From positions 1-42,192 of the IMG/VR virus record IMGVR_UViG_3300000553_000092: DNA of 42,192 nt; one strand, written 5' to 3'. The first letter of the stretch is position 1. Each line of letters opens with the position of its first letter. This document shows positions 672-42,192 of the stretch, one piece after another. The notes under the pieces were generated by a model that was not told the DNA's origin, searched no databases, and saw only the letters and a list, made by a program, of their open reading frames with translations. The DNA is from a virus. A program made the translations under genes and the position numbers.

Positions 672-675
672 CAAA

Positions 676-1695: not shown

Positions 1696-1697
1696 CG

Positions 1698-2094: not shown

Positions 2095-2095
2095 T

Positions 2096-2320
2096 ATGGC
2101 AGGAAGAATTAATAATGTTAAGAATGAGATTACCGCTTTTCTTAAGGAACATGCTGAACATTTAACTACAAAGATTAACGAATCTCCTACCAGACCCTTA
2201 ATCGGTCATATGATCAATTATGAAAGAGAAGTTTATTTTATTCCTTCAGAAAGATCTATAATGGATGAGAATGATGAGCTTTTGTTAGAAATGTTAATTG
2301 CAACTTTTTTATATGAGTAG
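2096..2320 (+). CDS. Small hypothetical protein
   Basis: A 74-residue protein, one base after the previous stop. It is predicted mostly helical (N-terminal KNEITAFLKEHAEHL, C-terminal ELLLEMLIATFLYE) with a short central strand. No recognisable motif or family. The tight spacing within a co-directional run supports it as real. Confidence 0.5.
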   Translation: MAGRINNVKNEITAFLKEHAEHLTTKINESPTRPLIGHMINYEREVYFIPSERSIMDENDELLLEMLIATFLYE

Positions 2321-2405
2321 ATATGTATTTCAAGTTGTAATTGCTGGATTTGGTAATAATCCAGATGAAGATGCTTATACTTTAGATGAAGAAGAAGATG
2401 AGTAA
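2313..2405 (+). CDS. Tiny acidic ORF
   Basis: A 30-residue ORF overlapping the previous stop (ATGAGTAG). It encodes a short strand (RYVFQVVIAG) and a very acidic tail (LDEEEDE). The strand-plus-acidic-tail composition looks like a genuine micro-protein rather than noise, but at this size coding cannot be proven. It partly fills the gap before the helicase gene. Confidence 0.35.
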   Translation: MSRYVFQVVIAGFGNNPDEDAYTLDEEEDE

Positions 2406-2439
2406 TTTCGATGAATTAGACAAACTTAAATATTAATTT

Positions 2440-3501
2440 ATGAGTTTTGAACAACTAAAAATTGAAGTAGAAAAGGGAATGTCAGGATTAAACAATGGCA
2501 TTCCTATGGGATTTAATAGACTTAATAGATATGTAGGTATTAGACGAAGAATTCTTACACTTGTGTTCGGAAGTCCTGGTTCTGGTAAATCTGCATATGT
2601 ACATTCTGCCTACATCTTATCACCTTTCGATTGGTATATTAAAAATAAAGACACTGTAAATATTAAATTTAAGGTTATTTTATTCTCCATGGAAAGAAGT
2701 AAGGTGTATATTCTTGCTAAATGGATGAGTAGAAAAATATTTATAGATCAAGGAGTATTTATACCTATTCAAAAATTGTTAGGATGGTGGGATGAAAAAC
2801 TTACAAAAGACGAACATGATCTTTTTTTAATGTTTGAACCTTATATGAATGAGCTTTTGGAATATGTAGATGTAATAGAAGGAGCTCAAAATCCTACTGC
2901 TATATATAAATATGTAAGAAATTATGCAGAAGCTAATGGTAAATTTGAACAGAAGGATGAATTCTCAAAAGTTTATATTCCAAATCATTCAAATGAAATA
3001 GTAATAGTTGCAGAAGATCATTTAGGTATTACTAAACTTGAAAAAGGACTTACTACAAAGAAAGAGGCAATTGATAAAGTCTCAGAGTATAATCAATTCT
3101 TTAGAGATACGTTAGGATACTCTCCAGTAACAGTCAGTCAATTAACAAGAAATCTTAGCAATCCTTTATTTCAAAAACAGACAAGTTTTGAACCTTCGAT
3201 AGATGATATTAAAGAAAGTGGAAGACCTGGTGAAGATAGTGACAATGTTATTAGTTTATTTGATCCGAGTAGATATAAAACTACTGATCCGAGTTATAAA
3301 GTTGATAATTTTATAGATCCTGCTACAGGTGGTAATTTCTTTAGAAAGATTAAAGTGTTAAAGAATACATACGGAGAGGATTCAATAGGTATTGGAATGG
3401 CATTCCATGGAGCTACTGGAATATTTAAAGAACTTCCTAAAGCAAACAATATGAACAATTTTAATTATACTGATATATTCAACGGAAGTTATTTTCTTTA
3501 A
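2440..3501 (+). CDS. DnaB-like (SF4) replicative helicase
   Basis: A 353-residue RecA-fold ATPase of the DnaB/SF4 family, expected to unwind DNA at the phage fork in partnership with the primase at 7742. Walker A is GSPGSGKS (44-51). The family's 'SMEx' signature is LFSMERS (81-87), a Walker B-like strand ends VIVAEDH (188-194), and the SQLTRN element (233-238) matches the sensor/loop region 'SQLxR'. It lacks the N-terminal primase-interaction domain of bacterial DnaB, as do many phage versions. No good Shine-Dalgarno is visible. It opens the replication module. Confidence 0.85.
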   Translation: MSFEQLKIEVEKGMSGLNNGIPMGFNRLNRYVGIRRRILTLVFGSPGSGKSAYVHSAYILSPFDWYIKNKDTVNIKFKVILFSMERSKVYILAKWMSRKIFIDQGVFIPIQKLLGWWDEKLTKDEHDLFLMFEPYMNELLEYVDVIEGAQNPTAIYKYVRNYAEANGKFEQKDEFSKVYIPNHSNEIVIVAEDHLGITKLEKGLTTKKEAIDKVSEYNQFFRDTLGYSPVTVSQLTRNLSNPLFQKQTSFEPSIDDIKESGRPGEDSDNVISLFDPSRYKTTDPSYKVDNFIDPATGGNFFRKIKVLKNTYGEDSIGIGMAFHGATGIFKELPKANNMNNFNYTDIFNGSYFL

Positions 3502-6906: not shown

Positions 6907-7782
6907 ATGACAAATTTAGAAAAGGTAAAAGAACTCTATGAACAAGATTATGGAGTTACTGAAATTGGAGAAATTTTAGTTATGAAAACTTCTAATGTAG
7001 GCATGTATTTAAACAAAATATATGGAAAGGATAGACCTAAGAGAACTAGATATAGATATATAAATAGACAATATACCTTAAATGATAGATATTTTAAAAA
7101 AATTGATTCTGAAGATAAGGCTTATTTTTTAGGATTACTATATGCAGACGGATGTATGTCAAGTACAAGTAATGCTGTACAGCTTGCACTGCAAGAGGAA
7201 GATAGTTACATTATAGAAAAATTTAAAGAATATATTAATTCTGATAAACCTTTAGGATTTATAAAAAGTAGTGAAATACTAGGGTTTCATAATCTACAAA
7301 AAAAGTACTATAGAAAAAATCAGAATATTCTCATAATTAACTCTTCTAGAATAAAAGAGCAACTACTAAATTTAGGTTTGACTCCCAATAAATCCTTAAC
7401 TATTACTTTTCCCTCCTTTTTATATAGAGAGATGTTACTACATTTCATAAGAGGTTATTTCGATGGAGATGGATGTATTTCTGCTTCTCCTAAAAATAGA
7501 TGGGGTATATCAATAGCGGGTAATAAAGAGTTCTCTGAAGAATTATCACTCTATTTAAATTCAAATGATGTAAAATCCATAGTTGTAAAGCATCGTAAGA
7601 ATAATGTTTATTATAGTAGAATTGCTGGAAGATTGAATTGTATAGATTTTTACAATCTTATATATAAAGATTCAAGCATTTACTTAACTAGAAAATTTAA
7701 TAAATTTCAAGAATGTATAAAATCGACAAAAATGGAAAGATATGGCAATACATGGAGAAAGGAAAAAGTTACTAACACCTGA
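6907..7782 (+). CDS. LAGLIDADG homing endonuclease with N-terminal HTH
   Basis: A 291-residue free-standing homing endonuclease. Residues 1-45 resemble a helix-turn-helix (VTEIGEILVMKTSNVGMYL). The first LAGLIDADG motif is AYFLGLLYADG (72-82) and the second is FIRGYFDGDG (about 180-190), both with the catalytic Asp, so it should act as a monomer. It is inserted between SSB and primase and overlaps the primase start by 41 bases. A 31-base stretch at 7450-7480 is identical to the next endonuclease gene, showing recent shared origin. Its target is probably the SSB-primase junction of endonuclease-free relatives. Confidence 0.88.
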   Translation: MTNLEKVKELYEQDYGVTEIGEILVMKTSNVGMYLNKIYGKDRPKRTRYRYINRQYTLNDRYFKKIDSEDKAYFLGLLYADGCMSSTSNAVQLALQEEDSYIIEKFKEYINSDKPLGFIKSSEILGFHNLQKKYYRKNQNILIINSSRIKEQLLNLGLTPNKSLTITFPSFLYREMLLHFIRGYFDGDGCISASPKNRWGISIAGNKEFSEELSLYLNSNDVKSIVVKHRKNNVYYSRIAGRLNCIDFYNLIYKDSSIYLTRKFNKFQECIKSTKMERYGNTWRKEKVTNT

Positions 7783-8800: not shown

Positions 8801-9604
8801 ATGAAAACTACACAATCTCAGATTGAATATATGATTAGATCATATACAATTGATAAAAAAAATACTTACGTTATAGGTATGGAATTAGGTATATCTAGTG
8901 TAACTGTACGATCCTATCTTAAAAGGGCAGGAATTACAATATCTAATCAGAAGTATAAGTTTAATGAGAATTATTTTAGAGAGATAGATACTTCAAATAA
9001 AGCATATTTCTTAGGATTTATATATGCAGACGGATGTGTGTTTCCCCCAAAAAATAGTTGTGCTATTAAACTTAAGAGAGAAGATGATTATATTCTTGAA
9101 CAATTCAAAAAAGAGTTAGGAAGTAGTAAACCGTTAAACTATACTGAATCAAAGCTTATAGTAGGTACTAATTATATTGGAAAAGCTCAATCTAAAATTG
9201 AAATTAATTCCAAAATAATGATTGAGGATTTACAAAGATTAGGTGTGACTCAGAATAAATCACTAACCTTAAAGTTTCCAAATGATATAATTTTTATGAG
9301 AGATTTTATCAGAGGTTATTTCGATGGAGATGGATGTATTTATTTTTCTCAAAAAAGAATAATGTTAAACTTCGTAGGTAGTGAATATTTTTGTAAGGGA
9401 TTGTGTAACTTTTTACAAAATAATCTTAATATAAATGTAATAACAAAACAGGATAAAAGAGGTAAATCTTGGTACATATTTATTTTTAGAATAAAAGATG
9501 TGCTAAAATTTTGTAATTATATTTATTATGATCCAACTTGTATAAAATTAAATAGAAAATTTAAAAAATTTGAAGACTATGTAATAAATAAGAGACTATT
9601 ATAA
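8801..9604 (+). CDS. LAGLIDADG homing endonuclease with N-terminal HTH
   Basis: A 267-residue paralogue of the gene at 6907. It has an HTH-like start (TYVIGMELGISSVTVRSYL), first LAGLIDADG motif AYFLGFIYADG (68-78) and second FIRGYFDGDG (about 169-179). It lies just after the primase gene, so the primase is bracketed by two related endonucleases. It has its own consensus promoter and no Shine-Dalgarno, consistent with leaderless translation. No intron core is seen around it, so it is free-standing. Confidence 0.88.
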   Translation: MKTTQSQIEYMIRSYTIDKKNTYVIGMELGISSVTVRSYLKRAGITISNQKYKFNENYFREIDTSNKAYFLGFIYADGCVFPPKNSCAIKLKREDDYILEQFKKELGSSKPLNYTESKLIVGTNYIGKAQSKIEINSKIMIEDLQRLGVTQNKSLTLKFPNDIIFMRDFIRGYFDGDGCIYFSQKRIMLNFVGSEYFCKGLCNFLQNNLNINVITKQDKRGKSWYIFIFRIKDVLKFCNYIYYDPTCIKLNRKFKKFEDYVINKRLL

Positions 9605-11783: not shown

Positions 11784-12605
11784 ATGTCTGGAATATATAC
11801 AATTACTAATATACTTACTAATCAAGTATTGGTTGGAGAAAGTAAAAATGTTCATAAAAGATTAATTGAACATAGATCTAAATTGCGAGGCAACTATCAT
11901 GAAAATGATTATTTGCAAAAAGCATTTAATAAGTATGGTGAACAAAATTTCAAATTTGAACTATTAGAAAATTGTGATCCATCTTTTCTGTTATCTCAGG
12001 AAAACTATTGGTGTAACTTATTAGATTCTCACAATGATAGATTTGGTTATAATATATTACAAACAGGACCAAATAAAATTAGTCACAAGAGAGTTAAATC
12101 GTTGAACGAGGTTCAGATAGAAACATTAAGAAGATCTTCGACTGGTAGAAAGTTTACAAATGAAGCTAAGTTAAAAATGTCTAGTGCTAAGAAATTATAT
12201 TATACAAATCATAAACATCCTTTGTTAGGAAGAAGTATGACAGAAGAAACAAAACAAAAAATATCAAGTAGTTTAAAAGGCAAGAATTTTCATACTGAGG
12301 AAGGAATTATAAATATTTCAAATAGTGCTAAACATAGAATAAAAAGTGTAGAAGAGATTAATAAAATAATAAATTTTCATACAGGAAGAAAACGATCTAA
12401 TAGTTCTATTCAAAACATGATTAATAATAGTAGAAGTATAAAATCTGTAATTCAGTACGACATGAACGGTTCGTTTATTAGAGAATGGGATAGAATTAGA
12501 GAAGCTGCAGAATTCCTGAAATGTGACCCTTCAGGTATATCAGCTTGTTGTAGAAATAAATGTAAATCAATAAAAAATTTCAAATGGAAATACAAACAAA
12601 AATGA
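11784..12605 (+). CDS. GIY-YIG homing endonuclease with NUMOD3/NUMOD1 repeats
   Basis: A 273-residue endonuclease. The N-terminal GIY-YIG domain begins GIYTITN with VLVGES as the YIG-equivalent strand, then the catalytic Arg region (KNVHKRLIEHRSKL) and a Glu in SQENYWC. NUMOD3-type DNA-binding repeats follow (SSTGRKFTNEAKLKMS, LLGRSMTEETKQKISSSLKG), then a C-terminal NUMOD1/IENR1 module (VIQYDMNGSFIREWDRIREA). It sits between the glycosylase remnant and the intact glycosylase gene and overlaps the latter by ATGA. A hairpin terminator and a candidate -7 box lie upstream. Confidence 0.85.
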   Translation: MSGIYTITNILTNQVLVGESKNVHKRLIEHRSKLRGNYHENDYLQKAFNKYGEQNFKFELLENCDPSFLLSQENYWCNLLDSHNDRFGYNILQTGPNKISHKRVKSLNEVQIETLRRSSTGRKFTNEAKLKMSSAKKLYYTNHKHPLLGRSMTEETKQKISSSLKGKNFHTEEGIINISNSAKHRIKSVEEINKIINFHTGRKRSNSSIQNMINNSRSIKSVIQYDMNGSFIREWDRIREAAEFLKCDPSGISACCRNKCKSIKNFKWKYKQK

Positions 12606-13666: not shown

Positions 13667-16600
13667 ATGATTTTAGAAAACCAAAAAGAAGCAGAAGTCC
13701 TCATGATTGGGGATATAAATGAAACAATTGCAATGTCACTAGACTTAGATTCTACACAGATGTTGATGCAGATGTTAAGTAAAAATCTTTATTCGGATGA
13801 GATTGGTTCTACTGTTAGGGAACTCTGTTAACACAATTTGTTCAAAATTATTAGGTAAATTAAAGAAGACTTACAATCTATATATAATAAATTGTATGAC
13901 AATGCGTCTTATTTTTTTTAAACGAAAGAAAGATAAGATGATGCTAAGTTTTTTAGAAACAGAACAAATTGAAGCAGCCTTACAAGGTAACTTGTAAGTG
14001 AAAATTGGGTGAATTGTCTGGGAAGTCCTGAAGAGGATAATCAGCAGCCAAGCTACATAGGAATGTGTAGAAGGTTCAACGACTAATAGCATACCACTAG
14101 AACAGTGATGAAGCTAACACGAGTGCCCGACAGCCAGTAAATCTGGTTGATGATATAGTCTGAGCTACAGATATAACAAAAAGAAACTGTAGAAGTAGAT
14201 ATAAAGAGATCTACGATAACAACACTGAGTAACGCCTTAGATAGTCATAGAAGAGCTGGAGTTGACAAACCAATCATCGTTTCATTAAAAATGAACAAAG
14301 AATATAATTATGAATTTACTGTAGAGGACTTTGGGGTAAAAGAAGAAACTTGCCCTCCTATTAAGTAATTATTAGGTAATAAAGAGAGCTAACCCATTTT
14401 AAAATGGGGTGTTGACATTTTTTGTCAGCTATCGGGGAAACCTAAGTAAGTAATAGAAGATTATATATTTGGTTTATATTGTTATATTTTGTACATTTGA
14501 AGAAAATATAACAATATGAAATTTTTAAGAACAGGATTAAATGAAGATTATTTTAAACAAATAGATTCTGAAGAAAAAGCATATTTCTTAGGATTTATAG
14601 TTGCTGATGGTTGTATAGTAAAAGATAAAGATACAACAATTAAGAAAGCTCAGAATAGATTAGTAATATCTATTCAGAATAGAGATGGTTATATTTTAGA
14701 GATAATCAATAATAGAATTAGTCCATATAAAAAATTACAAAATTGGACTTATGTTGGTCATCCTCTCTGGAGTAAACGAGTAACATTTAAAATAAATTCA
14801 AATAAACTTTGTAATGATTTAGAAACTTTAGGAGTAACATCTATGAAATCTGGAAATGAACAATTTCCCATAATAGATAAGTTATTAATGAGACATTTCG
14901 TTAGAGGATATTTCGATGGAGATGGATGTTGTTATGTTAAAACTATAAACAAAATCTGTAAACATGGAGGTAAACTTAAAGTTAAAGTTATTTTCACATG
15001 TCTTAATGAAAAGTTTTTAGAAGAATTACAAAAAGAACTAGAAGGTATAGGTATAATAAAAAAGATTATCAAAAAAGGAAATAGACAAGATGTATTTCAA
15101 TATACTATTGAAAATAAAAAAGATGTTCCTACCTTTTTTCATTATATTTATAATAATTCTAACTTATTCTTAAAAAGAAAATATGAGAAATTTTTATATG
15201 GCAATCCCGAACTAATTAACATTATAATAAATGTTAACAGTGTAGAGACTAGTAGTTGAAACTTTATTGCATTAATAAAGAATATAATACTACAAACAGG
15301 AGTTCTCCATCCTATAACTAGGATGAAAAGATAGTCCACTCCCTTTGGAAACATTGGGGTAACGTGAGGTTTAGACAATGATGATATTAAGAATATTATT
15401 AGTAAATATGGAAAGAGTTTAGCTAGAAATGAAGCTAATTCGTTGGGTATGATGGGTTTAGGCTTTAAATCACCATTGGCTTATACATCTGCCTTCTATT
15501 TTATCTGTAGGAAAGATGGAATGGAACGTAAGTACATGATGTATGAAGGCGAAGATGGTAATGCTATAGATCTTTTATATGAATCAGAAACAACTGAAAT
15601 AAATGGTGTAAAGGTTATAGTACCTATTAAGTCAGGAGACAAATATTCCTTTGTACTTAAGATTAAAGAGCAACTTGCTTATTTTGAAAATATATATTTC
15701 GATTGTAATGGAGATGTTAATAACAACTTTCTAATCAATCGTAGTGAGCTCTTTCAATATTCTGAATTATCGAAGGATAGTGATATGCACTTGTGTTTGG
15801 ACAATGTTTATTATCCTTTAGATTTTGGTAAACTAGGTATTAGTCGTATTAATGTTCCAATAGGATTAAGATTTGGTTTAAATGATGGTATTTTTCCTAT
15901 TCCTAATAGAGAGTCTCTAAGATATACTCCTGAAACAAAGCAAATAATAATTGATAAGATTCATTTAGTAGCTGATTATTTTGTAGATAAGTTTAATTCT
16001 CAAATAGTCGATGCTGATAATCTTGATAATATTTTTAATTTTTATGAGAATAAAATTAGAAATGTGACTCTTGGAACAAAACTATATGATATTGCTACAT
16101 TAATTCCTTTCTCATCAAAGAATATAGTTGAGCCTTCTTATACAAATATTAAATATTTGGATTTAAAACAATTGTATAAAATAAAAGATCATATTATGGA
16201 TGAATATCGTGTACAATTTATTTATCGTAGAGGAAAGATTAGTGAAAGTAACGAATCATTTAAAGCTAACGATTTAAAGAATGGTAAATACTATATAACT
16301 ACAGGTAGAGTATCTGGTAATAAACGAGAGTATATGAAAAGTATTCTTAACGACACTCATTATTTTGTAACAAAGATAAGAAGTTTTACATTAGGAGATC
16401 GTTATAGTACTTCTTATAATAAATATCATACACTTCTAGCTTTAGATAAACAACCTAAACATCTTTGGAGAAAAATCATTATAGAGTTTCAGAATATTCA
16501 AAAGATCTATATTAATATGTTTAAGGATTATGAGGCTATTGAAATTCCTAAAAGTTGGCTCGATGAGAGAAAAAAGAAAAGAGTCTCTGTTGGTGGTGGT

Positions 16601-20063: not shown

Positions 20064-20720
20064 ATGGCTATATTATATCAACATGTAAGATTAGATACTA
20101 ATGAAATATTTTATATTGGTGTAGGAGTTAACATTAAACGAGCCTATGCTACTAAATGTAGAAATAGGTTTTGGAAAGCCGTAACCTCTAAAACTAAATA
20201 CAAAGTAGAAATCTTATATTCCGATATATCATATGATGAAGCTTTAAATTTAGAAATGAATTTGATAGAACTGTATGGTAGACGAACTTTAGGAACAGGC
20301 ACTTTAGTTAATATAGATAGAGGAGGAAGAGGCGCTGCAGGCTATCATCAATCTCCAGAAGTTATAGCAAACAGAGTAGCTAAAATAAGAGGAAGATCAC
20401 CTTCTGAAGAAACAAAAGAGAAACTCAGAGTATCTAATCTTGGTAAAAAACGATCTGATAAAACTAGAGAAGCAAATAGAAAAGCTAATCTTGGAAAAAT
20501 ATTATCAGATTCTCATAAACAAAAAATATCAGAAGGATTGTTAAGAAATATCAATAAGCCAAAGTATAAATCTGGAATAAAAATAATAAATGAAGAGACA
20601 GAAGAAATCTATAAATCTTCATCTATGGCTGCTGCTATAGCAAATATTCCTAGAGAAACTTTTAGACGTTGGTTGAATAATTCTTCTGATAAATGTAAAC
20701 CTTTTAAATATTTAAAATAA
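20064..20720 (+). CDS. GIY-YIG-type homing endonuclease with NUMOD repeats
   Basis: A 218-residue protein. The N-terminal domain is a variant GIY-YIG fold (LYQHVRLDTNEIFYIGVG, then a basic helix with KRAYATKCRNRFWKAV, then a Glu in ALNLEMNLIELYGRR). NUMOD3-like repeats follow (RGRSPSEETKEKLRVSNLGK, LGKILSDSHKQKISEGLL), and a NUMOD1/IENR1-like module ends the protein (INEETEEIYKSSSMAAAIA). It lies between the interrupted small gene and the PD-(D/E)XK nuclease gene. I see no separate promoter or terminator, unlike the other endonuclease genes. Confidence 0.75.
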   Translation: MAILYQHVRLDTNEIFYIGVGVNIKRAYATKCRNRFWKAVTSKTKYKVEILYSDISYDEALNLEMNLIELYGRRTLGTGTLVNIDRGGRGAAGYHQSPEVIANRVAKIRGRSPSEETKEKLRVSNLGKKRSDKTREANRKANLGKILSDSHKQKISEGLLRNINKPKYKSGIKIINEETEEIYKSSSMAAAIANIPRETFRRWLNNSSDKCKPFKYLK

Positions 20721-22796: not shown

Positions 22797-24683
22797 ATGG
22801 CAAAAAAGAATGAGAATTTAGAAGATAAGGGTAAGACAAAGCTACAACTTGCCTTAGAAAAATTAGATAAGACATACGGAAAAGGTACAGTGCTAGCATT
22901 AGATAGTAGACCTTATGGAAACTATGATATAATCAGTACAGGATCAATTGGCTTTGATTGGATCACATTAGGAGTAGGAGGAGTCTGTAAAGGTAAACTC
23001 TATGAGTTGATGGGTTGGGAAGGATGTCTTGCTGAAGATAACTATATAAAATTTATTAATGTAAGAGAAGATGGTATTGTACAAGATTGTAAGGGTGCAT
23101 CTATTAAAAATCTTTATGAGAGATTTCATAATAGAAGTAGTTTAACAATTAATAGTACTTTTAATGTTGTTTCTATTAATGAATCAAATAGAGTATTTAG
23201 AAATCCCATACTAGATGTAGTTAAGAGTGGTAAAAAGGAATGTTTTGAATTAGTTACACAAAGAGGATTTGCTATTAAAGCTACCAAAGATCATAAGTTC
23301 TACATAGGTACTAAATATGTAGCATTGAAAGATCTTTCAAAAGGAGATGTTGTATTTATTCATAACAATACTCCGTATGAATCATTAGCTAAATCAGAGA
23401 GAAAAAAATATAAAGAAACTACTCTTAAATATTATTATAAAGGAAAACCAAAACTTATCAACGGTAGTTGGTATTTTAGAGAAAAGATCCATAGACTTAT
23501 ATTTGAAGCTGCTCAGAATAATCTTAACTATGTTCAATATAAAGAACTCTTAAATACTGGACAGATTCCTGAAAAATTCTGGACAATTCCTGAAGGTTAT
23601 GATATTCATCATATTGATGAAAATACTGAAAATAATGATATATCAAATCTACAACTGATTGAAAGTTTTAAACATTGCAGTCTACACGCTACAAATAATT
23701 CTAACAATTTAAGATTTGTTGTAGTTCCTGATAGAATCGTTAGTATCATATCTAAAGGAGTTATGGAAACCTACGATATTAAGTGTGAATTTCCTTATAA
23801 CAATTTCATTGCTGAAGGGATAGTAGTTCATAATTCTGGTAAGTCTACAGTATGTGGACATCTCGTAGCTAACTGTCAAGCTGCAGGAGGAGTAGCTGCA
23901 TATATTGATGGGGAACATGCTGTTGACAAACTTTATTTTCAGAATTTAGGAGTTAATACCAAAACACTATTATTTGCTCAACCTTCTTCGGGAGAAGAGG
24001 GTTTTCAAATAGCAGAAGAATTAATTAAAACTGAAGAAGTAGATCTAATTATTATTGATAGTGATAGTTCATTAATTCCAAAGGCAGCCATAGTTGATGG
24101 TGATATAGGTGATAGTACAATTGGTAAAAAAGCCAGATTGAATAGTAATGCCTATCCTCGACTAAAAAACTTACTGTCTCAGCATCACGTTGCTGTAGTA
24201 GTTATTAGTCAATATAGAGAAAAAATTGGTGTAATGTTTGGTAATCCTACTACAACACAGGGAGGACACGCATTAAAATTCTATTCAGACTGTAGAATTG
24301 AAATCTCTAGAACTATTGCTAAAGAAGGTGATCATGCTTATGGTAATATTACTAAGCTAAAAGCTACTAAGAATAAGATGTCCCCCCCATATAGACTCTC
24401 TCAATTTGAGATTATATACGGTAAAGGAATCGATGCTTTCACTGAAATGGTAGAACTGGGTGTAGAGTTTAACATTATTAAGAAGTCTGGATCTTGGTTC
24501 TCTTATGGAGAAGTAAAGCTAGGTCAGGGATTTGATGGCGTAACTGAACTGCTTAAAGATAATCCTGAACTCTTTGATGAGATTAAATTACAAATTATTA
24601 ATAAAATTAAACAAACAGATGATCTTCCTGTTGATCTTACTACAGAAGATCCTTTAGAAACAGAAACAACAGCAACAGTATGA
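22797..24683 (+). CDS. recA: RecA recombinase with an intein in the P-loop
   Basis: A 628-residue precursor. Removing residues 77-346 (the intein) leaves a 358-residue RecA of bacterial type, not UvsX. Walker A is restored as GWEG|SGKST; AAYIDGEHAVDKLYFQNLGV, LFAQPSSGEEGFQIAEEL, VDLIIIDSDSSLIPKA, IGDSTIGKKAR and REKIGVMFGNPTTTQGGHA match consecutive bacterial RecA blocks. It should form ATP-dependent filaments for strand exchange. The catalytic P-loop is broken until splicing. The stop overlaps the dUTPase start. Confidence 0.9.
   Translation: MAKKNENLEDKGKTKLQLALEKLDKTYGKGTVLALDSRPYGNYDIISTGSIGFDWITLGVGGVCKGKLYELMGWEGCLAEDNYIKFINVREDGIVQDCKGASIKNLYERFHNRSSLTINSTFNVVSINESNRVFRNPILDVVKSGKKECFELVTQRGFAIKATKDHKFYIGTKYVALKDLSKGDVVFIHNNTPYESLAKSERKKYKETTLKYYYKGKPKLINGSWYFREKIHRLIFEAAQNNLNYVQYKELLNTGQIPEKFWTIPEGYDIHHIDENTENNDISNLQLIESFKHCSLHATNNSNNLRFVVVPDRIVSIISKGVMETYDIKCEFPYNNFIAEGIVVHNSGKSTVCGHLVANCQAAGGVAAYIDGEHAVDKLYFQNLGVNTKTLLFAQPSSGEEGFQIAEELIKTEEVDLIIIDSDSSLIPKAAIVDGDIGDSTIGKKARLNSNAYPRLKNLLSQHHVAVVVISQYREKIGVMFGNPTTTQGGHALKFYSDCRIEISRTIAKEGDHAYGNITKLKATKNKMSPPYRLSQFEIIYGKGIDAFTEMVELGVEFNIIKKSGSWFSYGEVKLGQGFDGVTELLKDNPELFDEIKLQIINKIKQTDDLPVDLTTEDPLETETTATV
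23025..23834 (+). mobile_element. HNH intein in RecA
   Basis: A 270-residue intein starting at Cys (CLAEDNYIKFINV, Hint block A) and ending VVHN before extein Ser, all required for splicing. Block B is TKDHKF with the conserved His. The endonuclease is an HNH: IHHIDENTENNDISNLQL with a following His. The C-terminal blocks are VMETYDIKCEFPYNNFIAEG and IVVHN. The insertion point lies between Gly and Ser of the Walker A motif. Confidence 0.92.
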
Positions 24684-25957: not shown

Positions 25958-26269
25958 ATGAAGAATCTATTTTATTACACAAAAAAAGAAGTTGCACAAC
26001 CAAAACTAGGAGATACAGAACCTAGGTTTGAGCTTATCGAAAGTAGTTTTAATATTAACAAGGTTATTATTACTGCCAAGGTAGAAGGTGATAAGTTCGC
26101 TGTTGTCCTGGATGACTATCATGAGCGTATTGCTGAAGTGCCTGATTATAATGCTAAAGGTATTAAAAAAGGTATGAAGAATAAACACTACACCCATCAG
26201 ACAATTATCTATCTGGAGGAAGATGATGCTGCTAAATTTATAGCACTTACTAAAGCGAATGTTGACTAA
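25958..26269 (+). CDS. Hypothetical protein
   Basis: A 103-residue alpha/beta protein (NKVIITAKVEGDKFAVVLDD ... TIIYLEEDDAAKFIALT). Its 3' end overlaps the fucosyltransferase start by 11 bases. No family recognised. Confidence 0.5.
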   Translation: MKNLFYYTKKEVAQPKLGDTEPRFELIESSFNINKVIITAKVEGDKFAVVLDDYHERIAEVPDYNAKGIKKGMKNKHYTHQTIIYLEEDDAAKFIALTKANVD

Positions 26270-27056
26270 AGACTATATTATTCCAAGTCTGGCTGGTAGG
26301 ATGGGTAATCATATGTTTATGATTGCTCATGCCTATGCTAGATCTTTGGAATACAATAAACAACTTGTTATTGCTAGAGATCAACTTGTCGATGGCAATA
26401 ATGGAGATGATTATTCGCAACATATCTTTAGAAAAATTGAAACTATAGATAAGTTTGATGATAATCATAACTGGAATCCATCTATACCTAGTGATGATAA
26501 ACATACTCAATATCATGGATATTATCAGAGTGAAATATATTTCCAAAAATACAGTGAGGCAATTAAATCGTTGTACGCACCCACTCCTGAATTTATAGAA
26601 AGGATAAAATATGAGATTCCTGAATTATTTACTACAGAAGTTACATTAATCTCTGTAAGACGGGGTGATTATTTATTCTATCCAAATTATCATCCAGTAG
26701 TATCTGAAGAATATCTTCATATGGCAGTAGGAATTATTAAACCAACTTTTCATTTAATAGCTAGTGATGATATTCCTTGGTGTAAAGAACATCTTAGAAT
26801 GACTCCTTGTAGATATCTAGAAGGATATTCGGCTCATGAACAGATGTGGATAATGGGAATGTGTAATCATTTTGTTATCTCTAATTCTTCATTTAGTTGG
26901 TGGGGAGCTTGGCTCTCAAACTATCCTAAAAAAAAGATAATTGCTCCTTCTATATGGTTTGGTCCAGAAGGTCCTCAAGATTGGCAAAGTATATATGCTA
27001 ATAATTGGGTTATACTTAGTTCTCGTTTTAAAAACGGTTTTATATATCCATTATGA
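26259..27056 (+). CDS. Glycosyltransferase family 11-like (alpha-1,2-fucosyltransferase type)
   Basis: A 265-residue GT-B enzyme. The N-terminal GRMGNHMFMIAHAYARSLE matches the GT11 start, YHGYYQSEIYFQKY the mid-region, and VTLISVRRGDYL is the nucleotide-sugar motif (HxRRGDY-like). The C-terminal part has FVISNSSFSWWGAWLS, the family's 'SNSTFSWWGAWL'. Such enzymes move fucose (or a related sugar) from GDP-fucose to glycans. No signal peptide, so cytoplasmic. It pairs with the GT2 gene that follows. Confidence 0.88.
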   Translation: MLTKDYIIPSLAGRMGNHMFMIAHAYARSLEYNKQLVIARDQLVDGNNGDDYSQHIFRKIETIDKFDDNHNWNPSIPSDDKHTQYHGYYQSEIYFQKYSEAIKSLYAPTPEFIERIKYEIPELFTTEVTLISVRRGDYLFYPNYHPVVSEEYLHMAVGIIKPTFHLIASDDIPWCKEHLRMTPCRYLEGYSAHEQMWIMGMCNHFVISNSSFSWWGAWLSNYPKKKIIAPSIWFGPEGPQDWQSIYANNWVILSSRFKNGFIYPL

Positions 27057-27748
27057 TATCAGTTCTAACATTAACTTATAAGCGTTCACATTTACTTGAA
27101 GAGGCAATTCAATCTTTTCTTGAACAATATACGGATGATTGTGAAATGGTGATAATAAATGATAATTCAGAAGTTGATTATATATTTAATCATCCTCAAG
27201 TAAAAATTATTAACTGTAAGAATAGGTTTCCTTCCATCGCTGCAAAGATAGAATGGGGATATAAGCAATGTAAATATAATTATATATATCGATTAGATGA
27301 TGATGATCTATTATCACCTTTTGCAATGATGAATGCTAAATATGATATAATGGATCATGTTGGATTTGATATCTATCGCAGTAAAGGATCTTATTTCTTT
27401 TCTGAGAATAAATATGAAGGAGAAACATCTAATATCAATAATGGAAATATTTATACTAAATCTTATTTAGATAGAATTACTTTTCCAGATAAGAGTGGTA
27501 ATGAAGATGAGGATATAACATTTCATCATAATGCTAAAATATATGAATCAACACTTCTTCATACAATGATTTATCGTTGGGGAATGAACACTCTTCATAT
27601 CTCTGGAATGGGATGTAATAATAGTGAATTAATCTTTGCTCAGGCTGATCGAGTTTTAGATAATACTAAAGGGACTATTATTCTTCATCCAAAATTTCTT
27701 AATGATTATTATACTCCTATATTTGATTATATAAAAAAGAGCTCTTAA
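27053..27748 (+). CDS. Glycosyltransferase family 2
   Basis: A 231-residue GT-A enzyme. The N-terminal ISVLTLTYKRSHLLEEAIQS and VIINDNS are the nucleotide-binding strands, and YRLDDDDLLSP supplies the metal-binding DxD. The length suits a single-domain GT2. It overlaps the fucosyltransferase by four bases, so the two are co-translated. The sugar and acceptor are unknown. Its stop codon lies in the loop of the terminator. Confidence 0.85.
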   Translation: MISVLTLTYKRSHLLEEAIQSFLEQYTDDCEMVIINDNSEVDYIFNHPQVKIINCKNRFPSIAAKIEWGYKQCKYNYIYRLDDDDLLSPFAMMNAKYDIMDHVGFDIYRSKGSYFFSENKYEGETSNINNGNIYTKSYLDRITFPDKSGNEDEDITFHHNAKIYESTLLHTMIYRWGMNTLHISGMGCNNSELIFAQADRVLDNTKGTIILHPKFLNDYYTPIFDYIKKSS

Positions 27749-30592: not shown

Positions 30593-30802
30593 TTACAAAT
30601 GTGTAGTGGTAGTACTGGTAGTAGTTGAATGTGTAGTAGTGGTAGTGGTAGTAGTTGTAGGATTACAACATTGATATCCTGGAATAGATACCCATTTACC
30701 TACTTTAGGCATTTTACGTCTTAGAATAAGACTTCCTGCAACCACTCTGCCTTGTCCATCCATACGAACATAAGCATTAAGTTTCTTGTCGAGACTTCCC
30801 AT
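30593..30802 (-). CDS. Small structural-type protein with poly-Thr tail
   Basis: A 69-residue protein. The N-terminal 50 residues (DKKLNAYVRMDGQGRVVAGS then LILRRKMPKVGKW and a CC pair) match a small protein I recall from many Bacteroidota phages. The C-terminus is TTTTTTTTTHSTTTSTTTTH, a dense Thr tail and an obvious candidate for O-glycosylation. The gene end consists of short repeats that could vary in length by slippage. Confidence 0.65.
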   Translation of the reverse strand: MGSLDKKLNAYVRMDGQGRVVAGSLILRRKMPKVGKWVSIPGYQCCNPTTTTTTTTTHSTTTSTTTTHL

Positions 30803-31285: not shown

Positions 31286-32320
31286 TTAATAGTTTAAATG
31301 ATACTTTTCGTATAATTCTTTAAGTTCTTTGACATAATACCAACTGCAATATTTCTTACTATTCTCATTATTAAATACAAAGTCAATTTGAGGATCTGTA
31401 AAAGGATCTCTACCGTTGTGATACTTACCTTTATAGAATGTGGGATATGAAAACGTATCACTTATTTTCATTAGTTCACTGGATATACCAGCATTATGAT
31501 ATATAGGATGTGTTTCTAATCTATCAATAGTGTCCGTAGCCCAACTAAATCCCATTTCTGGAACTACTTTAGGAGCTGCATCTCTTACCCACAAATTCCA
31601 AAGAACTGCCCACATATCTGCACACCAACTTTGAAAACCTTTATCCTCACTTTCAAAAAATCGTTTATTAATACTTTGAAGATAATTTCGAATAATAACA
31701 CAATCGTTCATAACCTTACTCCAAAACTTAGCATCTATATTTTTCAATAGATATTGAGCTCCTCCTGAATCAAGATTATGCTCTTCCGCTATCTGTCTAC
31801 TAGTTCCAACTATACTTGTAATTTCAGCAAGAACGTCTATAGATTCATATTCAATTTTTCTTTCAGGTAGAACATCATTTAGTTTACTATTAAAATAACT
31901 AGCATTAATATAACTATTTGTATCAGATACATAGTTTATATTATTCTCAATGAGATGATCTATATTAAATCTTTCACTAAATATAATATCACAATCACAA
32001 TAAAAAATGGCATCAGCTACTCTTTGAGGATTATCTTTAAAATATCTCCATAGAACATAAGGTCTTAAAACAGAAACATAAATATCTAGTAATGATGTTA
32101 TGTCATGATCATCCGTATAATATACAAATTCTGCTTCAGGGTATAAATTATTAATTCGTTGCCACTTTGGTAAATCTGGTTGTCTGTCTTTGGGAGTAAA
32201 CACTAAGATGATAGCATCTTTTGAGTGATTAATCTTTTTTAAACTTTCTAACCATAGGTGAACTTGCCAAGTGTAATAAGTATCGTCGGGCTGTGCACAA
32301 ATGAATTTAAGATCTCTCAT
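31286..32320 (-). CDS. Putative GT-A glycosyltransferase (DxD)
   Basis: A 344-residue protein. The N-terminal KFICAQPDDTYYTWQVHLWL opens a nucleotide-binding-like fold, AIFYCDCDIIF holds the DxD, and HNAGI near the C-terminus recalls the late His of GT-A enzymes. Similar proteins sit among tail genes of Bacteroidota phages (recalled). Location between the fibre and FN3-like genes suggests that the acceptor is a virion protein. Sugar unknown. Confidence 0.6.
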   Translation of the reverse strand: MRDLKFICAQPDDTYYTWQVHLWLESLKKINHSKDAIILVFTPKDRQPDLPKWQRINNLYPEAEFVYYTDDHDITSLLDIYVSVLRPYVLWRYFKDNPQRVADAIFYCDCDIIFSERFNIDHLIENNINYVSDTNSYINASYFNSKLNDVLPERKIEYESIDVLAEITSIVGTSRQIAEEHNLDSGGAQYLLKNIDAKFWSKVMNDCVIIRNYLQSINKRFFESEDKGFQSWCADMWAVLWNLWVRDAAPKVVPEMGFSWATDTIDRLETHPIYHNAGISSELMKISDTFSYPTFYKGKYHNGRDPFTDPQIDFVFNNENSKKYCSWYYVKELKELYEKYHLNY

Positions 32321-37646: not shown

Positions 37647-37659
37647 ATCACTAAGATTA

Positions 37660-37709
37660 ATAATCAGTTATAAAAAATAATACACGTAGGTACATATTCT
37701 ACGTGTATT
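37660..37709 (-). terminator. Terminator or attenuator in the leader of the leftward operon
   Basis: An 11-bp perfect stem (37679-37689 with 37699-37709, nine-base loop). On the minus strand it is followed by an ATTTTTT run. It lies between the leftward promoter and its first gene, so read-through would need antitermination; it would also stop transcripts entering from 39.9 kb. Confidence 0.7.
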
Positions 37710-37748
37710 GAGTTGATATAGTATCATAATAGGGATTATAATAATAAA

Positions 37749-37780
37749 CAAATCTATATATAAATCTTAACATCACCAAA
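37749..37780 (-). promoter_or_regulatory. Complete leftward Bacteroidota-type promoter
   Basis: On the minus strand, TTTG (37780-37777), a 20-base spacer and TAGATTTG (37756-37749) fit the consensus. It should drive the lysis/tail operon, leaving a leader of about 100 bases. Confidence 0.72.
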
Positions 37781-37787
37781 TTTTTTT

Positions 37788-37795
37788 TATTTTTG
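37788..37795 (+). promoter_or_regulatory. Candidate -7 box of the rightward glycosyltransferase gene
   Basis: TATTTTTG fits TAnnTTTG, 21 bases before the ATG at 37817. The upstream TTTG is missing. It would form a divergent pair with the leftward promoter. Confidence 0.45.
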
Positions 37796-37816
37796 TGTAA
37801 ACCAATATTTTACTTT

Positions 37817-39907
37817 ATGAAACTATTAAAAAATCCAAGAATTTTATTCCTGCCAAGTCATCTATCTACAGGAGGAATGCCTGCATTTCTTCTAAAGCGT
37901 ATCGAGGTTTTGCAAAAATATACTAATGCTAAGATATTCGTAGTTGAATATCAGTGTGTATCTTTAGAATTTACAGTTCAACGAAACACAATCAAACTCT
38001 TATTAGGAGATAATTTTCAAACTCTAAATGAAAACAAGATGCAACTATTTGATATTATTAAAAGTTGGCATCCTGATATTATTCATATAGATGAAATGTC
38101 TGAAAGATTAGATTATCAAATGACTAGTAGATTATATGATATAAATAGATCTTACAAAATAGTTGAAACTTGTCATGATATATCATTTAATCCTCAAGAT
38201 AAGATATTTCATCCTGATATATATATGTTTTGTACACCCTATCATCTTACTACTTTTGCTAATTTACCAGGATTAAAATCAATATTACAATTTCCAATAG
38301 ATGAAGTTAATAATGGAACATTAACTAAACTTAGAGCAAAAGAAATTTTAGGAATGGAACCCTCTATGAAACATGTTTTAAACGTAGGACTTTGGACTAA
38401 AGGAAAAAATCAAGAGGAAGGATTAAGAATTGCAAGACTATATCCAAATATAAAATTTCATTTTGTTGGAAATCAGGCAAATAATTTTATAGATTATTGG
38501 AAATCGTTGATGAAAAATCTTCCAAAAAATGTAAAAATATGGGGAGAACGTACTGACGTGGCAATGTTTATGAAAGCTGCAGATATATTCATGTTTAATT
38601 CTACTTGGGAATGTAATCCATTAGTATTAAGAGAAGCAATATCAAATCATCTTCCTATAATTGCAAGAGATTTGCCACAGTACGGAAATATGTTTAAGAA
38701 ATATATTAATCCTATTACTTCTGATTTAAACTTAATTAAAGCAGATTATGAAGTTCCTATAGATAATACATCGGAAGATTGGGCAATAAATCACGTTGAC
38801 TGTTATAATTTTATTGTGAATAATACAATTTCGATAGCACCAACTCCAAAGATATCTATTACTCAGCATTTTGTTGAGAATCCGTTCTTAGAGATATTAG
38901 GAAATAGTGATAAAGATTACACTGTTAAATTTTTAGATTCTGATAATGTATGTTATTATGAAAATACAATTAAATCAAATCATTGGATTAAATTAAATAG
39001 AACATGGTTTACTAAATGGACTACTGAGATATGGTCTGAAAATAAATTATTGTATAAAAATACATTAGACTATACAGGAAAACGTGTATATATTGCATTT
39101 AATAGTAAAGCTCTTGGAGATACAATTGCTTGGATTCCTTATGTATTAAAATTTCAAGAAATACATAATTGTCATGTAATTGTATCAACATTCAATAATG
39201 CATTATTTAAAAAAGTATATCCAGAACTAGAGTTTATAAATCCTGGTGAAATAGTATATGATATATATGGAATGTATAATGTTGGATATTTCTATAATAA
39301 TGATAAAGAACCAACATTTCCTAATTCAGTTCCGTTGCAAAAAGCTGCATGTAATATTCTTGGATTAGCATATGAAGAACTAATTCCTAGAATTAATTTT
39401 ACTCCTAAGAAAAGATTATATAAATACAAATATGTAACCATTGCCACCAATTCAACCAGTGGTTGTAAATATTGGAATAAAGTAGATTGGCAAAAACTAG
39501 TAAACTATATAATAGAGAGAGGATATAAAGTGATAAATGTATCAATTGAAAAGAATCCTCTAGACTATGTAGAACAAATCGAAGATACATCTATAGAGAA
39601 TACTATGCATACAATTTATCATAGTGAACTCTTTATTGGTCTATCTTCAGGATTAAGTTGGTTAGCTTGGGCACTAAAGAAGCATGTAGTAATGATTGCT
39701 AATTTTACAGGAGATAATTATGAGTTTCAATCTAATTGTACAAGAATAATTAATAAATCTGTATGTCATGACTGTTGGAGTACGAATCGATTAGATGCTG
39801 GAGATTGGAATTGGTGTCCATTATACAAAAATACTCCTCGACAATGGGAATGTCAGAAGAGTATTAATGCCAATATGGTTATAGATAAATTAAAAGAACT
39901 ACTATAG
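37817..39907 (+). CDS. Fused GT4 glycosyltransferase and TibC-like heptosyltransferase
   Basis: A 696-residue protein from the ATG at 37817 (an upstream in-frame TTG at 37793 overlaps the promoter). Residues 1-310 are a GT4-type GT-B enzyme (PSHLSTGGMPAFLLKRIEVL, NVGLWTKGKNQEEGLRIARL, FMFNSTWECNPLVLREAIS). About 340-420 is a strand-rich linker. Residues 420-696 match autotransporter-type O-heptosyltransferases: YIAFNSKALGDTIAWIPYV, GLSSGLSWLAWALKKHVVMI, and a four-Cys metal finger CHDCW...DWNWCP...RQWEC (Cys 650, 653, 667, 679). Such enzymes glycosylate protein Ser/Thr. It is the only rightward gene inside the leftward structural block. Confidence 0.8.
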   Translation: MKLLKNPRILFLPSHLSTGGMPAFLLKRIEVLQKYTNAKIFVVEYQCVSLEFTVQRNTIKLLLGDNFQTLNENKMQLFDIIKSWHPDIIHIDEMSERLDYQMTSRLYDINRSYKIVETCHDISFNPQDKIFHPDIYMFCTPYHLTTFANLPGLKSILQFPIDEVNNGTLTKLRAKEILGMEPSMKHVLNVGLWTKGKNQEEGLRIARLYPNIKFHFVGNQANNFIDYWKSLMKNLPKNVKIWGERTDVAMFMKAADIFMFNSTWECNPLVLREAISNHLPIIARDLPQYGNMFKKYINPITSDLNLIKADYEVPIDNTSEDWAINHVDCYNFIVNNTISIAPTPKISITQHFVENPFLEILGNSDKDYTVKFLDSDNVCYYENTIKSNHWIKLNRTWFTKWTTEIWSENKLLYKNTLDYTGKRVYIAFNSKALGDTIAWIPYVLKFQEIHNCHVIVSTFNNALFKKVYPELEFINPGEIVYDIYGMYNVGYFYNNDKEPTFPNSVPLQKAACNILGLAYEELIPRINFTPKKRLYKYKYVTIATNSTSGCKYWNKVDWQKLVNYIIERGYKVINVSIEKNPLDYVEQIEDTSIENTMHTIYHSELFIGLSSGLSWLAWALKKHVVMIANFTGDNYEFQSNCTRIINKSVCHDCWSTNRLDAGDWNWCPLYKNTPRQWECQKSINANMVIDKLKELL

Positions 39908-39927: not shown

Positions 39928-41448
39928 TTATTCCCAAGTATAAATAAATTGATAAGTATATGCCAACACTCCAGAAGTTAATGCTGTAGTGATTGTTTTA
40001 TTTCCAACTAGAGCTATGAATTCTCCAGGATTAACATATATAGGTTGATCAAAGTTAGAAACATAGGCTGGCTGTTGCAAAAGAGTTCCTGCTGCTGCTG
40101 TAGCAACAGTAATACTAGTTAACTCTGGAAGCATAACTCTTCGTGGAGCTTTCGTAGTAGCTGCTTCCGCAGTAGTTAGTGCTGCTGCTGTATGTCCAAA
40201 AGCTATATACCACTCTGTATATGATGGACCTCCTGCAACAACTGTTTGAACCATTCCTGATAACTTAATACCTGTTACAACTAATCTTCTACCTTGTACA
40301 CCTACAGTTCCTCCAGGAATCTGATATGATGCAAATATTCCATCAACATTAGCAGCAAGACCTGTACTTAAAGTTTCATATATTCTTCCTCCTAAAGAGT
40401 TAGGTAAGTTTGCAGTTAGAGCTCCGTTCGCAGGAACTGCAGCAGTGGGTTTTACTAGTGTACCTGAAGTTACAGTTCCTGCAATAAGTTGTCCCATTGC
40501 AGCACCACCAGATAGACCTTGATAACTACCAAAACAACGATTTCCTCCTTCTCTGTAACTTCCACCACCAGTAACTCCACCAAGTCTAACATTATATTTA
40601 GAAAGAGTTGCACTTAAAGCAGTACCAGCAGCACCACCAACAATTGCGTGTCTAATGTGAAATGGAGCAGTTGCAGATGATATTGCTGTTCCTTGTCCCG
40701 ATGGTATTGCTATATCTGATAATAGCTTTGCACCATTGCCATCGTTGACCCAAAACTCAACCTCTACGGATGATATGTATAAGATAAATTGATACTTCTT
40801 GTTATTGGTATATGCCCATGTTCCAGCTCCTGCGGCCAAAGGGAAGATACCAGTTGATGTCTCTGTTCCATTATAGTTTAATATACCTTGTAATCCTGAA
40901 GCATTTAACCTAAAATAAGCTCCATCAGAAGGTGCAAATGGATTTGTAGTTGCTCCATAAAATAAACCAAAATCAATAATTGTATTTGATGTAGGTTGAG
41001 CTGTAAATGCTAGTTCCATATCACACGATATAGTTCCAGTACCAATAATAGGAAAACATGCATAGGTTTGTAGAGTTGCTCCTGATGCAGAAGTTGTTAC
41101 ACCAGTCGGATTAGTATTATATCCTCCCGCTGTCCAAGATGGAACTAAATTGACTGCTGTTGCTATAATAGTATGCTTTCCTGTATTTTGTGATGTATAG
41201 TTAAATAATTCATCATCAAGAATAGTATCTTGTGATACTCTAAGACGATAATCATCATCCGTTTCTGGAGATAATAGATATGGATTTCCAGTTAATGCTC
41301 CTTCATCATTAACACTTTGAATTCTAACATTTCCAATATTTTTAGGATTTCCAAGTGAATCTACTTCAGGAATAATCTTTAATTGATTTGTTCCTGCTAC
41401 TTCTGCTACATTGCCTGAGACGTTACCCTCAATTCTTATTCCTGCCAT
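39928..41448 (-). CDS. Virion structural or adhesion protein
   Basis: A 506-residue Gly/Ala/Thr-rich beta protein. It starts with GIRIEGNVSGNVAEVAGTNQ and a segment ending in DYRLRVSQDTILDDELFNYT, which I recall in a common but uncharacterised class of Bacteroidota phage structural proteins. The middle looks like a lectin-type sandwich (YQFILYISSVEVEFWVNDG); the C-terminus is compact and beta-rich. It probably decorates capsid or tail. Confidence 0.6.
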   Translation of the reverse strand: MAGIRIEGNVSGNVAEVAGTNQLKIIPEVDSLGNPKNIGNVRIQSVNDEGALTGNPYLLSPETDDDYRLRVSQDTILDDELFNYTSQNTGKHTIIATAVNLVPSWTAGGYNTNPTGVTTSASGATLQTYACFPIIGTGTISCDMELAFTAQPTSNTIIDFGLFYGATTNPFAPSDGAYFRLNASGLQGILNYNGTETSTGIFPLAAGAGTWAYTNNKKYQFILYISSVEVEFWVNDGNGAKLLSDIAIPSGQGTAISSATAPFHIRHAIVGGAAGTALSATLSKYNVRLGGVTGGGSYREGGNRCFGSYQGLSGGAAMGQLIAGTVTSGTLVKPTAAVPANGALTANLPNSLGGRIYETLSTGLAANVDGIFASYQIPGGTVGVQGRRLVVTGIKLSGMVQTVVAGGPSYTEWYIAFGHTAAALTTAEAATTKAPRRVMLPELTSITVATAAAGTLLQQPAYVSNFDQPIYVNPGEFIALVGNKTITTALTSGVLAYTYQFIYTWE

Positions 41449-41467: not shown

Positions 41468-42192
41468 TTAGTAATTAATTATATAGTCTACATTAAATGT
41501 TCCATTTAATCTCCAATCACTAATTGCTGTAAGATCAAAGGATACTCCAACTACTATGTTTCCAACACTTAACTTAATTGGTACAATCTGATGTTCTGTT
41601 ATATTATGTGTTGCTGTAGCTCTTGCTGGAATTATAGGTATGATTATAGATGATGATGTAACATTTGAATTAGTTATAGTAGTAATGATCATATTTGTTC
41701 CTGGAGCATTACCAAAATTAATGGTACTAGTTCCTAATTTAACATTACCTACGCCACTTGTACCATTACTTCCATCCTCTCCATCCTCTCCACTTGTACC
41801 ACTTGTAGAAGAGGTTCCAGACGTTCCATTTGATCCATTTATTGATACTCCTGAACTACCAGAAGTTCCATTAATACCCGATGTACCATTACCACTTGAT
41901 CCTGATGTACCATTTGAACCATTAGTTCCACTAATAGTTATACCTGATGTACCGTTTGATCCATTACTTCCCGATGTACCATTAGTACTAACTCCAGAAG
42001 TGCCACTAGATCCGCTGATAGTTATACCAGATGTTCCTGAACTACCAGCAATCGTTATTCCACTCGTACCTCCTGTTGATGAGGTTCCATTACTACCATT
42101 ACTTCCTGATGTGCCGTTAGAGCCAATGCCAGAAGTACCGCTAGTTCCATTTACTGTAAGACCACTACTACCAGATGTACCATTCGAACCGT
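41468..42192 (-). CDS. Collagen-like Gly/Thr/Ser-repeat fibre protein, 5' end outside window
   Basis: The minus-strand frame is open from the window edge to 41468, well upstream of the first ATG (41692). From the edge it encodes about 160 residues of Gly-X-Y-like repeats (GTSGSSG, GSNGTSG, GITISG), then GEDGEDGSNGTSGVGNVKLG and an 80-residue beta-rich end. Collagen-like stems are common in phage fibres. There is almost no Pro, and Thr/Ser dominate, leaving many possible O-glycosylation sites. Confidence 0.78.
   Translation of the reverse strand, partial: GSNGTSGSSGLTVNGTSGTSGIGSNGTSGSNGSNGTSSTGGTSGITIAGSSGTSGITISGSSGTSGVSTNGTSGSNGSNGTSGITISGTNGSNGTSGSSGNGTSGINGTSGSSGVSINGSNGTSGTSSTSGTSGEDGEDGSNGTSGVGNVKLGTSTINFGNAPGTNMIITTITNSNVTSSSIIIPIIPARATATHNITEHQIVPIKLSVGNIVVGVSFDLTAISDWRLNGTFNVDYIINY

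Follow-up and report, generated by a model that had tools for sequence, protein, structure and literature searches.

Positions 37817–39907 of the window (the whole stretch of DNA analysed here, a 42,192-bp virus record that is itself a fragment) encode a GT4 glycosyltransferase joined to a TibC-type heptosyltransferase domain, an organization that is confirmed here. From its domain identities, folds, catalytic residues, gene order and a statistical tie across phages, this protein is probably a two-active-site enzyme for virion O-glycosylation, whose TibC-type domain would add a first sugar, most likely heptose, to the Gly-Thr-Ser shaft of a tail fibre, and whose GT4 domain would most likely extend it. 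TibC and AAH (BAHT) are bacterial enzymes that heptosylate autotransporter adhesins such as TibA and AIDA-I. What is new is that one class of phage glycosyltransferase is tied to a specific repeat sequence in the phages' own tail fibres.

Domain organization and fold

The open reading frame runs from an ATG at 37817 to a stop at 39907, and an in-frame TTG at 37793 would lengthen the product to 704 amino acids. Pfam identifies GT1/GT4 (PF00534) at residues 185–296 (E 6.6e-11) and GT9/heptosyltransferase at residues 527–625 (E 8.8e-6), both over the curated cut-off, and the NCBIfam model TIGR04414, "autotransporter strand-loop-strand O-heptosyltransferase", covers residues 366–694 with 255.5 bits (E 7.5e-76; equivalog cut-off 200). 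A sequence search of the PDB matches TibC (4RAP, E 1.5e-43). In an AlphaFold model built with 25 relatives (pLDDT 84), residues 345–696 superpose on 4RAP with a Z of 34.5 and an rmsd of 2.5 over 344 amino acids, and residues 6–333 superpose on GT4 enzymes (Z 26 for HepE).

The initial annotation, made from the sequence alone, had described a GT4 fused to a TibC-like domain with a four-Cys finger, and this is borne out by Pfam, TIGR04414, the 4RAP fold and the alignment of the Cys residues. The structural comparison to TibC that it proposed is the superposition given above; residues 420–696, where a different fold would have spoken against that description, lie within the part of the model that fits TibC.

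Table 1. Features of the window, with strand and supporting evidence.
Feature	Position	Strand	Evidence and remarks
GT4-BAHT (TibC-type) fusion gene	37817..39907	+	696 aa; Pfam, NCBIfam, PDB search, AlphaFold
N-terminal GT4 domain, retaining GT-B fold, residues 6–337	37832..38827	+	PF00534; structure match HepE, BshA, MshA, PimA
GT4 E-x7-E motif, E265–E273	38609..38635	+	among 25 fusions E265 invariant, E273 at least 90%
C-terminal TibC-fold heptosyltransferase domain, residues 345–696	38849..39904	+	TIGR04414, 4RAP, Z 34.5; beta strands 346–416 precede GT-B core
D435, equivalent of TibC catalytic base Asp110	39119..39121	+	43/43 phage and 81/81 bacterial copies
Four-Cys finger C650, C653, C667, C679	39764..39853	+	aligns with TibC iron-finger Cys
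Probable tail/virion protein, between fusion and repeat gene	39928..41448	-	506 aa; weak PHROG "tail protein" match, E 0.0013
Candidate acceptor, tail-fibre-like Gly-Thr/Ser-Ser/Asn repeat protein	41468..42190	-	240 aa visible, cut by record end
Visible repeat tract	41750..42190	-	147 aa: 45 Gly, 43 Ser, 25 Thr, 15 Asn
GT11 glycosyltransferase, possible accessory enzyme	26259..27056	+	PF01531, E 3.4e-23
GT2 glycosyltransferase, overlaps GT11 gene	27053..27748	+	PF00535, E 1.5e-12
phrog_4417 protein, function unassigned	31286..32320	-	E 1.8e-53; further copy on record of L002
Divergent intergenic region	37647..37816	.	sigma-70-like site 37713–37742; TAnnTTTG at 37788; 11-nt inverted repeat 37679–37709

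Active-site residues and comparison to TibC

Residues were compared across 43 dereplicated phage copies and 81 bacterial copies, using TibC numbering, with the roles of the catalytic Asp110, the pocket and the iron finger taken from published work (PMC4358343). The four Cys, spaced CxxC-13-C-11-C, align with TibC Cys339/342/358/370 and are kept in 43/43 phage copies, in agreement with the metal finger read from the sequence in the initial annotation. The TibC pocket residues Thr226, Lys230 and Trp305 correspond to T547, K551 and W615 in the window copy; Lys230 and Trp305 are kept in all 43 phage copies, as is the catalytic Asp, and Thr226 is mostly kept. The GT4 and TibC-type domains both retain their catalytic residues (E265/E273, and D435, K551 and W615), and elsewhere in phages the two parts are found as adjacent, overlapping genes, which makes the earlier suggestion of two sugars added in sequence a plausible one.

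Other features depart from TibC. Arg286, which TibC needs for activity and through which it contacts the adenine of ADP-heptose (PMC4358343), is an Arg in 2/43 phage copies versus 68/81 bacterial copies, and the window copy has no Arg at this position (Thr in the PDB-search alignment). The position of Pro300 is occupied by Ser in the window copy and by Gly in most relatives; AAH, which naturally has a Ser there, accepts both ADP-heptoses (PMC4358343). The beta-hairpin thumb (F265/V266 at its tip), which links TibC dimers into a dodecamer (PMC4358343), is deleted in the window copy and in two relatives (L002 and L046), and most relatives possess a shorter DGYMGN-type loop, so that a TibC-like dodecamer is doubtful. 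With both Arg286 and the thumb missing in the window copy, its donor pocket and oligomer may differ from those of TibC.

Overall, the phage enzyme resembles TibC/AAH (4RAP, 4RB4; PMC4358343) in the fold of residues 345–696, the four Cys, the Asp, Lys230, Trp305, the strands preceding the GT-B core and a score exceeding the TIGR04414 equivalog cut-off, but differs in forming a separate clade that has lost Arg286, in the deleted thumb of the window copy, L002 and L046, in its fusion to GT4 in the window, and in its recurrent partner, a Gly-Thr-Ser repeat fibre, with no hint of a strand-loop-strand autotransporter in this fragmentary record. Because the Arg286 and thumb features are missing, I place the C-terminal domain in a variant clade, despite its TIGR04414 score and fold, and do not call it an autotransporter heptosyltransferase.

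Donor sugar

Since the adenine-contacting Arg286 is lost, it could be argued that the fusion glycosylates the virion using some other donor than ADP-heptose, such as a UDP-sugar or a different ADP-sugar. The Arg286 counts, the substitution of Pro300 by Ser or Gly, and the window record, in which no HldE gene was found, all agree with such a donor. However, the nearest relative in the C-domain tree (L002) encodes, around its fusion, an HldE-like kinase (E 2.6e-36), a heptose-phosphate adenylyltransferase (E 2e-28) and an HldD-like ADP-heptose epimerase (E 1.3e-52), these matches all being under the NCBI full-length cut-offs. HldE kinase/adenylyltransferase pairs are also found near or directly behind the enzyme in five other loci (L053, L059, L060, L073 and L078), and those directly behind the enzyme accompany clade members that likewise lack Arg286. 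Such genes beside relatives favour ADP-heptose despite the loss of Arg286, as do the retention of Lys230, Trp305, the catalytic Asp and mostly Thr226, and the use of both ADP-heptoses by AAH with its Ser at the Pro300 position. I therefore regard another donor as unlikely, and ADP-heptose as the preferred one.

HldE was also considered as a record-level co-marker of the enzyme, and rejected since it is not clearly enriched (8/41 versus 3/33), so that adjacency alone counts. Given this, and its absence from the window, most such phages would rely on host ADP-heptose.

Distribution and phylogeny

A scan of viral contigs identified 253 stretches encoding relatives, which rules out a chance reading frame or a unique fusion. 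Among the best 80 of these 253 there are many full-length fusions, at 37–54% identity. The GT4 and TibC-type parts also lie within proteins of up to 1527 amino acids, together with an FkbM methyltransferase and other GT domains. The enzyme is found in the isolate Microcystis phage Mel-JY01, and in phage assemblies of 636 kb and 735 kb. In the 735-kb phage a repeat protein, a GT4 relative and the TibC-type gene adjoin one another; in the 636-kb phage no repeat was found within 12 kb of the enzyme.

The Mel-JY01 protein (WWT39291, in PP395634) is likewise a large protein of several domains, among them a GT domain and, at the C-terminus, a TibC-type one; it is encoded two genes from a repeat protein in a phage that has been isolated, but its GenBank name is "methyltransferase FkbM". 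Within the same genome, positions 635–3052 (+) of PP395634.1 (L368) encode a clear 805-aa Gly-Thr-Ser repeat protein, where GenBank has instead an antisense hypothetical ORF at 739–2298 (-).

Two viral homologues are present in BFVD: A0A6J5SVC1, "Glycosyltransferase Aah/TibC [uncultured Caudovirales phage]" (35% identity over 373 columns), and A0A7S9XE01 from Virus NIOZ-UU157 (52% identity over 718 columns). Both are annotated by similarity, and no proposed acceptor, donor or role was found for either. The initial annotation had known of no phage role for this family; this has to be revised in view of the 253 relatives in viral contigs, Mel-JY01 and the 636–735 kb phages, and of the Aah/TibC label already given to a viral protein.

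In a tree of 125 C-domains, 43 phage copies and 15 copies from bacterial genomes form one group (SH-aLRT 96), separate from a clade that comprises TibC together with Burkholderiales and Selenomonad enzymes. Some of these 15 bacterial-genome copies may be phage DNA binned into bacterial assemblies. An origin of the window copy from a host genome is unsupported, as the phage and the 15 bacterial-genome copies group apart from the TibC-like clade.

Association with Gly-Thr-Ser repeat proteins

Clustering of the neighbouring genes revealed that proteins carrying long (Gly-Thr/Ser-Ser/Asn)n runs recur next to the enzyme. Defining a strict tract as at least six consecutive G[TS][TSN] triplets, one is present in 35/51 dereplicated enzyme loci versus 0/57 loci of GT11, another phage glycosyltransferase, and 0/11 loci of DUF5675, a lysis-block gene. 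The median distance between enzyme and repeat is 1950 bp, and the difference (35/51 versus 0/68) corresponds to a Fisher p of 4e-18, an optimistic value since the test assumes independent loci, and related phages, even after dereplication, are only partly so. Where the repeats contain no Ser/Thr, a tie to the enzyme is absent (1/51 versus 2/68 loci).

Enzyme loci lie in the tail block, and location alone could inflate these counts; whole-record tests were therefore added. Among 33 GT11 records, the four with a BAHT are exactly the four with repeats (p 2.4e-5, likewise an optimistic value). Records picked by their repeat DNA encode a BAHT in 17/38 cases, compared to 1/42 collagen-like control records, that one also having Gly-Thr-Ser repeats. 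For records of at least 60 kb, a BAHT is present in 16/21 repeat-selected, 4/20 GT11 and 1/13 collagen-like (Gly-Pro-X) records. The Gly-Pro-X control rules out a general link to any collagen-like fibre.

The pairing is not universal. No strict tract was found in the DNA fetched around the enzyme in 16/51 loci, nor in the whole, often short, record for six loci (L053, L059, L060, L071, L073 and L078, five of which have the HldE pair), and no BAHT was found in 5/21 repeat-bearing records of at least 60 kb. These absences carry little weight, as a virus record is often just part of a genome. In two loci, close relatives of the enzyme have neighbours with collagen-like GAT/GPT/GAQ repeats and no Gly-Thr-Ser runs (L020:16173–17120 and L051:16165–16866, both on the - strand), possibly reflecting a switch of acceptor.

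Bacterial members of the phage-type clade provide independent support, since no tail fibre is involved there: a strict tract is present in 8/20 of their loci versus 0/58 classical-clade loci. They adjoin Gly-Thr-Ser repeat proteins, several of which begin with a leader-like sequence; in Methylobacter the gene for the repeat protein precedes the enzyme gene by 41 bp, in the same orientation. In four Methylococcaceae loci (L085, L088, L091 and L095), proteins with a leader-like N-terminus and Gly-Thr-Ser/Ala tracts adjoin TibC-type enzymes, and from their sequences these are probably bacterial repeat glycoproteins.

The statistical tie across phages makes Gly-Thr-Ser repeat tail fibres the likely target of the enzyme, in place of the autotransporter acceptor implied by the initial annotation. 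Host-glycan or DNA-protection roles have been proposed for other phage glycosyltransferases (PMC7029224, PMC10202952), and the enzyme could similarly alter host surface glycans (LPS core, O-antigen or capsule) against superinfection, its adjacency to the fibre then reflecting a variable host-interaction region. The additional GT11 and GT2 genes of the window, and the structural kinship of TibC to the GT9/WaaC family, fit such a role. Against it, the protein-modifying model TIGR04414 scores 255.5 bits on the fusion protein versus just 22.2 for the LPS heptosyltransferase model heptsyl_trn_I, the association singles out Ser/Thr repeat fibres, with collagen-like fibres and the other phage glycosyltransferase showing none, and bacterial clade members are paired with repeat proteins outside phages; a host-glycan role is thus distinctly unlikely. 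It could also be envisaged that the fusion modifies a secreted or surface protein of the host during infection, as bacterial clade members adjoin secreted-looking repeat proteins and hosts may carry similar acceptors, but phages themselves encode the repeat fibre beside the enzyme, making a host target unnecessary and this reading highly improbable. Modification of the virion's own fibre remains the preferred reading.

Gene order and window context

The fusion gene lies on the + strand amid - strand tail and lysis genes, confirming the inversion within the tail block that was described earlier. In the closest relatives (L370 and L372, 53% identity to the window fusion), the order is a tail gene, a small tail-like gene, the repeat fibre, the convergent fusion and lysis-type genes; 13 bp separate the ends of the fibre and fusion genes in L370. 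The enzyme/repeat-gene order of the window is also present in L370, L371 and L372, where the repeat proteins have PHROG matches among tail-fibre and collagen-like tail families; the window inserts one gene, for the 506-aa protein, between the two. The inverted gene in the tail block is therefore a conserved arrangement. A plain moron, as suggested in the initial annotation, is ruled out by this conserved position, convergent to the repeat-fibre gene and beside the same lysis genes.

The repeat tract of the window uses three Gly, four Thr and five Ser codons, and such varied synonymous codons speak for a repeat kept by selection on the protein rather than one produced by recent slippage of the DNA. 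A strict pattern scan of the window record gave 0 matches, because its repeats are mostly irregular (GSNGTSGSSG) and not strict Gly-Thr-Ser triplets. The C-terminal end of the repeat protein that is visible here was predicted with a pLDDT of 47, and this model is unusable. The GT11 and GT2 genes may elaborate the same glycan, since the BAHT-bearing GT11 records (G039, G041, G042 and G044) are all among the closest GT11 relatives. A 69-aa protein with a poly-Thr tail (NPTTTTTTTTTHSTTTSTTTTHL), encoded at 30593–30802 (-), is another possible O-glycosylation substrate.

The promoter of its own previously assigned to the fusion gene finds a hint in the sigma-70-like site, which has 11/12 matches, a quality that 1.4% of dinucleotide-shuffled versions of the 170-bp upstream region reach as well; over the whole region, a promoter scan found 44 sites versus 38.8 expected, and so no excess. 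The inverted repeat at 37679–37709 is perfect over 11 nt with a loop of 9, followed by a T-rich run on the - strand, and is probably an intrinsic terminator or an operator that separates the fusion gene from the lysis genes running leftward. A Shine-Dalgarno-like motif precedes 4/41 ORF starts (window ORFs of at least 100 aa), and this scarcity, together with the TAnnTTTG located ∼22 bp upstream of the fusion ATG, suggests a Bacteroidota host. By eye, a RecA-like ORF at 22797–24683 (+) is apparently interrupted by an intein, and LAGLIDADG-like and GIY-YIG-like homing-endonuclease-like ORFs are seen at 6907–7782, 8801–9604, 11784–12605, 14516–15259 and 20064–20720.

Proposed mechanism and implications

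For the donor, acceptor residues, second sugar, order of addition and benefit, I propose the following. The C-terminal TibC-type domain would transfer a first sugar, most likely heptose, onto many Ser/Thr of the repeat shaft, from ADP-heptose supplied by the host or by phage HldE/HldD-like enzymes. In the window, the acceptor would be the shaft of the tail fibre encoded at 41468–42190 and past the record end. The N-terminal GT4 domain would then most likely extend this first sugar, and the glycan could be elaborated, in relatives, by additional glycosyltransferases and by FkbM methyltransferases that are fused to the enzyme or encoded next to it. A sugared shaft might be stiffer, protected from proteases, or active in adhesion.

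SdgB and GtfA, both GT4 enzymes, glycosylate adhesins with Ser-Asp or Ser-rich repeats. The system proposed here would work alike, in that a repetitive Ser/Thr protein is densely O-glycosylated by dedicated enzymes, and the GT4 domain of the window has the same fold (Z about 21.6), although fold alone is no proof of function. The first enzyme and the sugar differ, however, and the GT4 of the window is proposed to act second.

Phage glycosyltransferases are usually explained by DNA glucosylation or by changes to the host O-antigen. In the open-access papers searched, I found neither a phage function described for TibC/AAH enzymes nor a Gly-Thr-Ser fibre carrying sugar. Beyond the window, the balance tips modestly towards a widespread phage O-heptosylation of Gly-Thr-Ser tail-fibre shafts, by a distinct TibC-type clade that is often fused to GT4 or FkbM and sometimes accompanied by its own ADP-heptose genes, in phages from ∼100 kb to 735 kb, with bacterial counterparts acting on secreted Gly-Thr-Ser repeat proteins. 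As the enzyme is tied to a specific fibre repeat, its acceptor can be predicted, and the prediction can be put straight to the test in a phage available as an isolate. If this reading holds, fibre shafts with a heavy sugar coat would be a common feature of environmental phages, which would matter for how hosts are recognized, how stable virions are and what Gly-Thr-Ser repeats mean in both phage and bacterial proteins, and the TibC family would extend past autotransporters.
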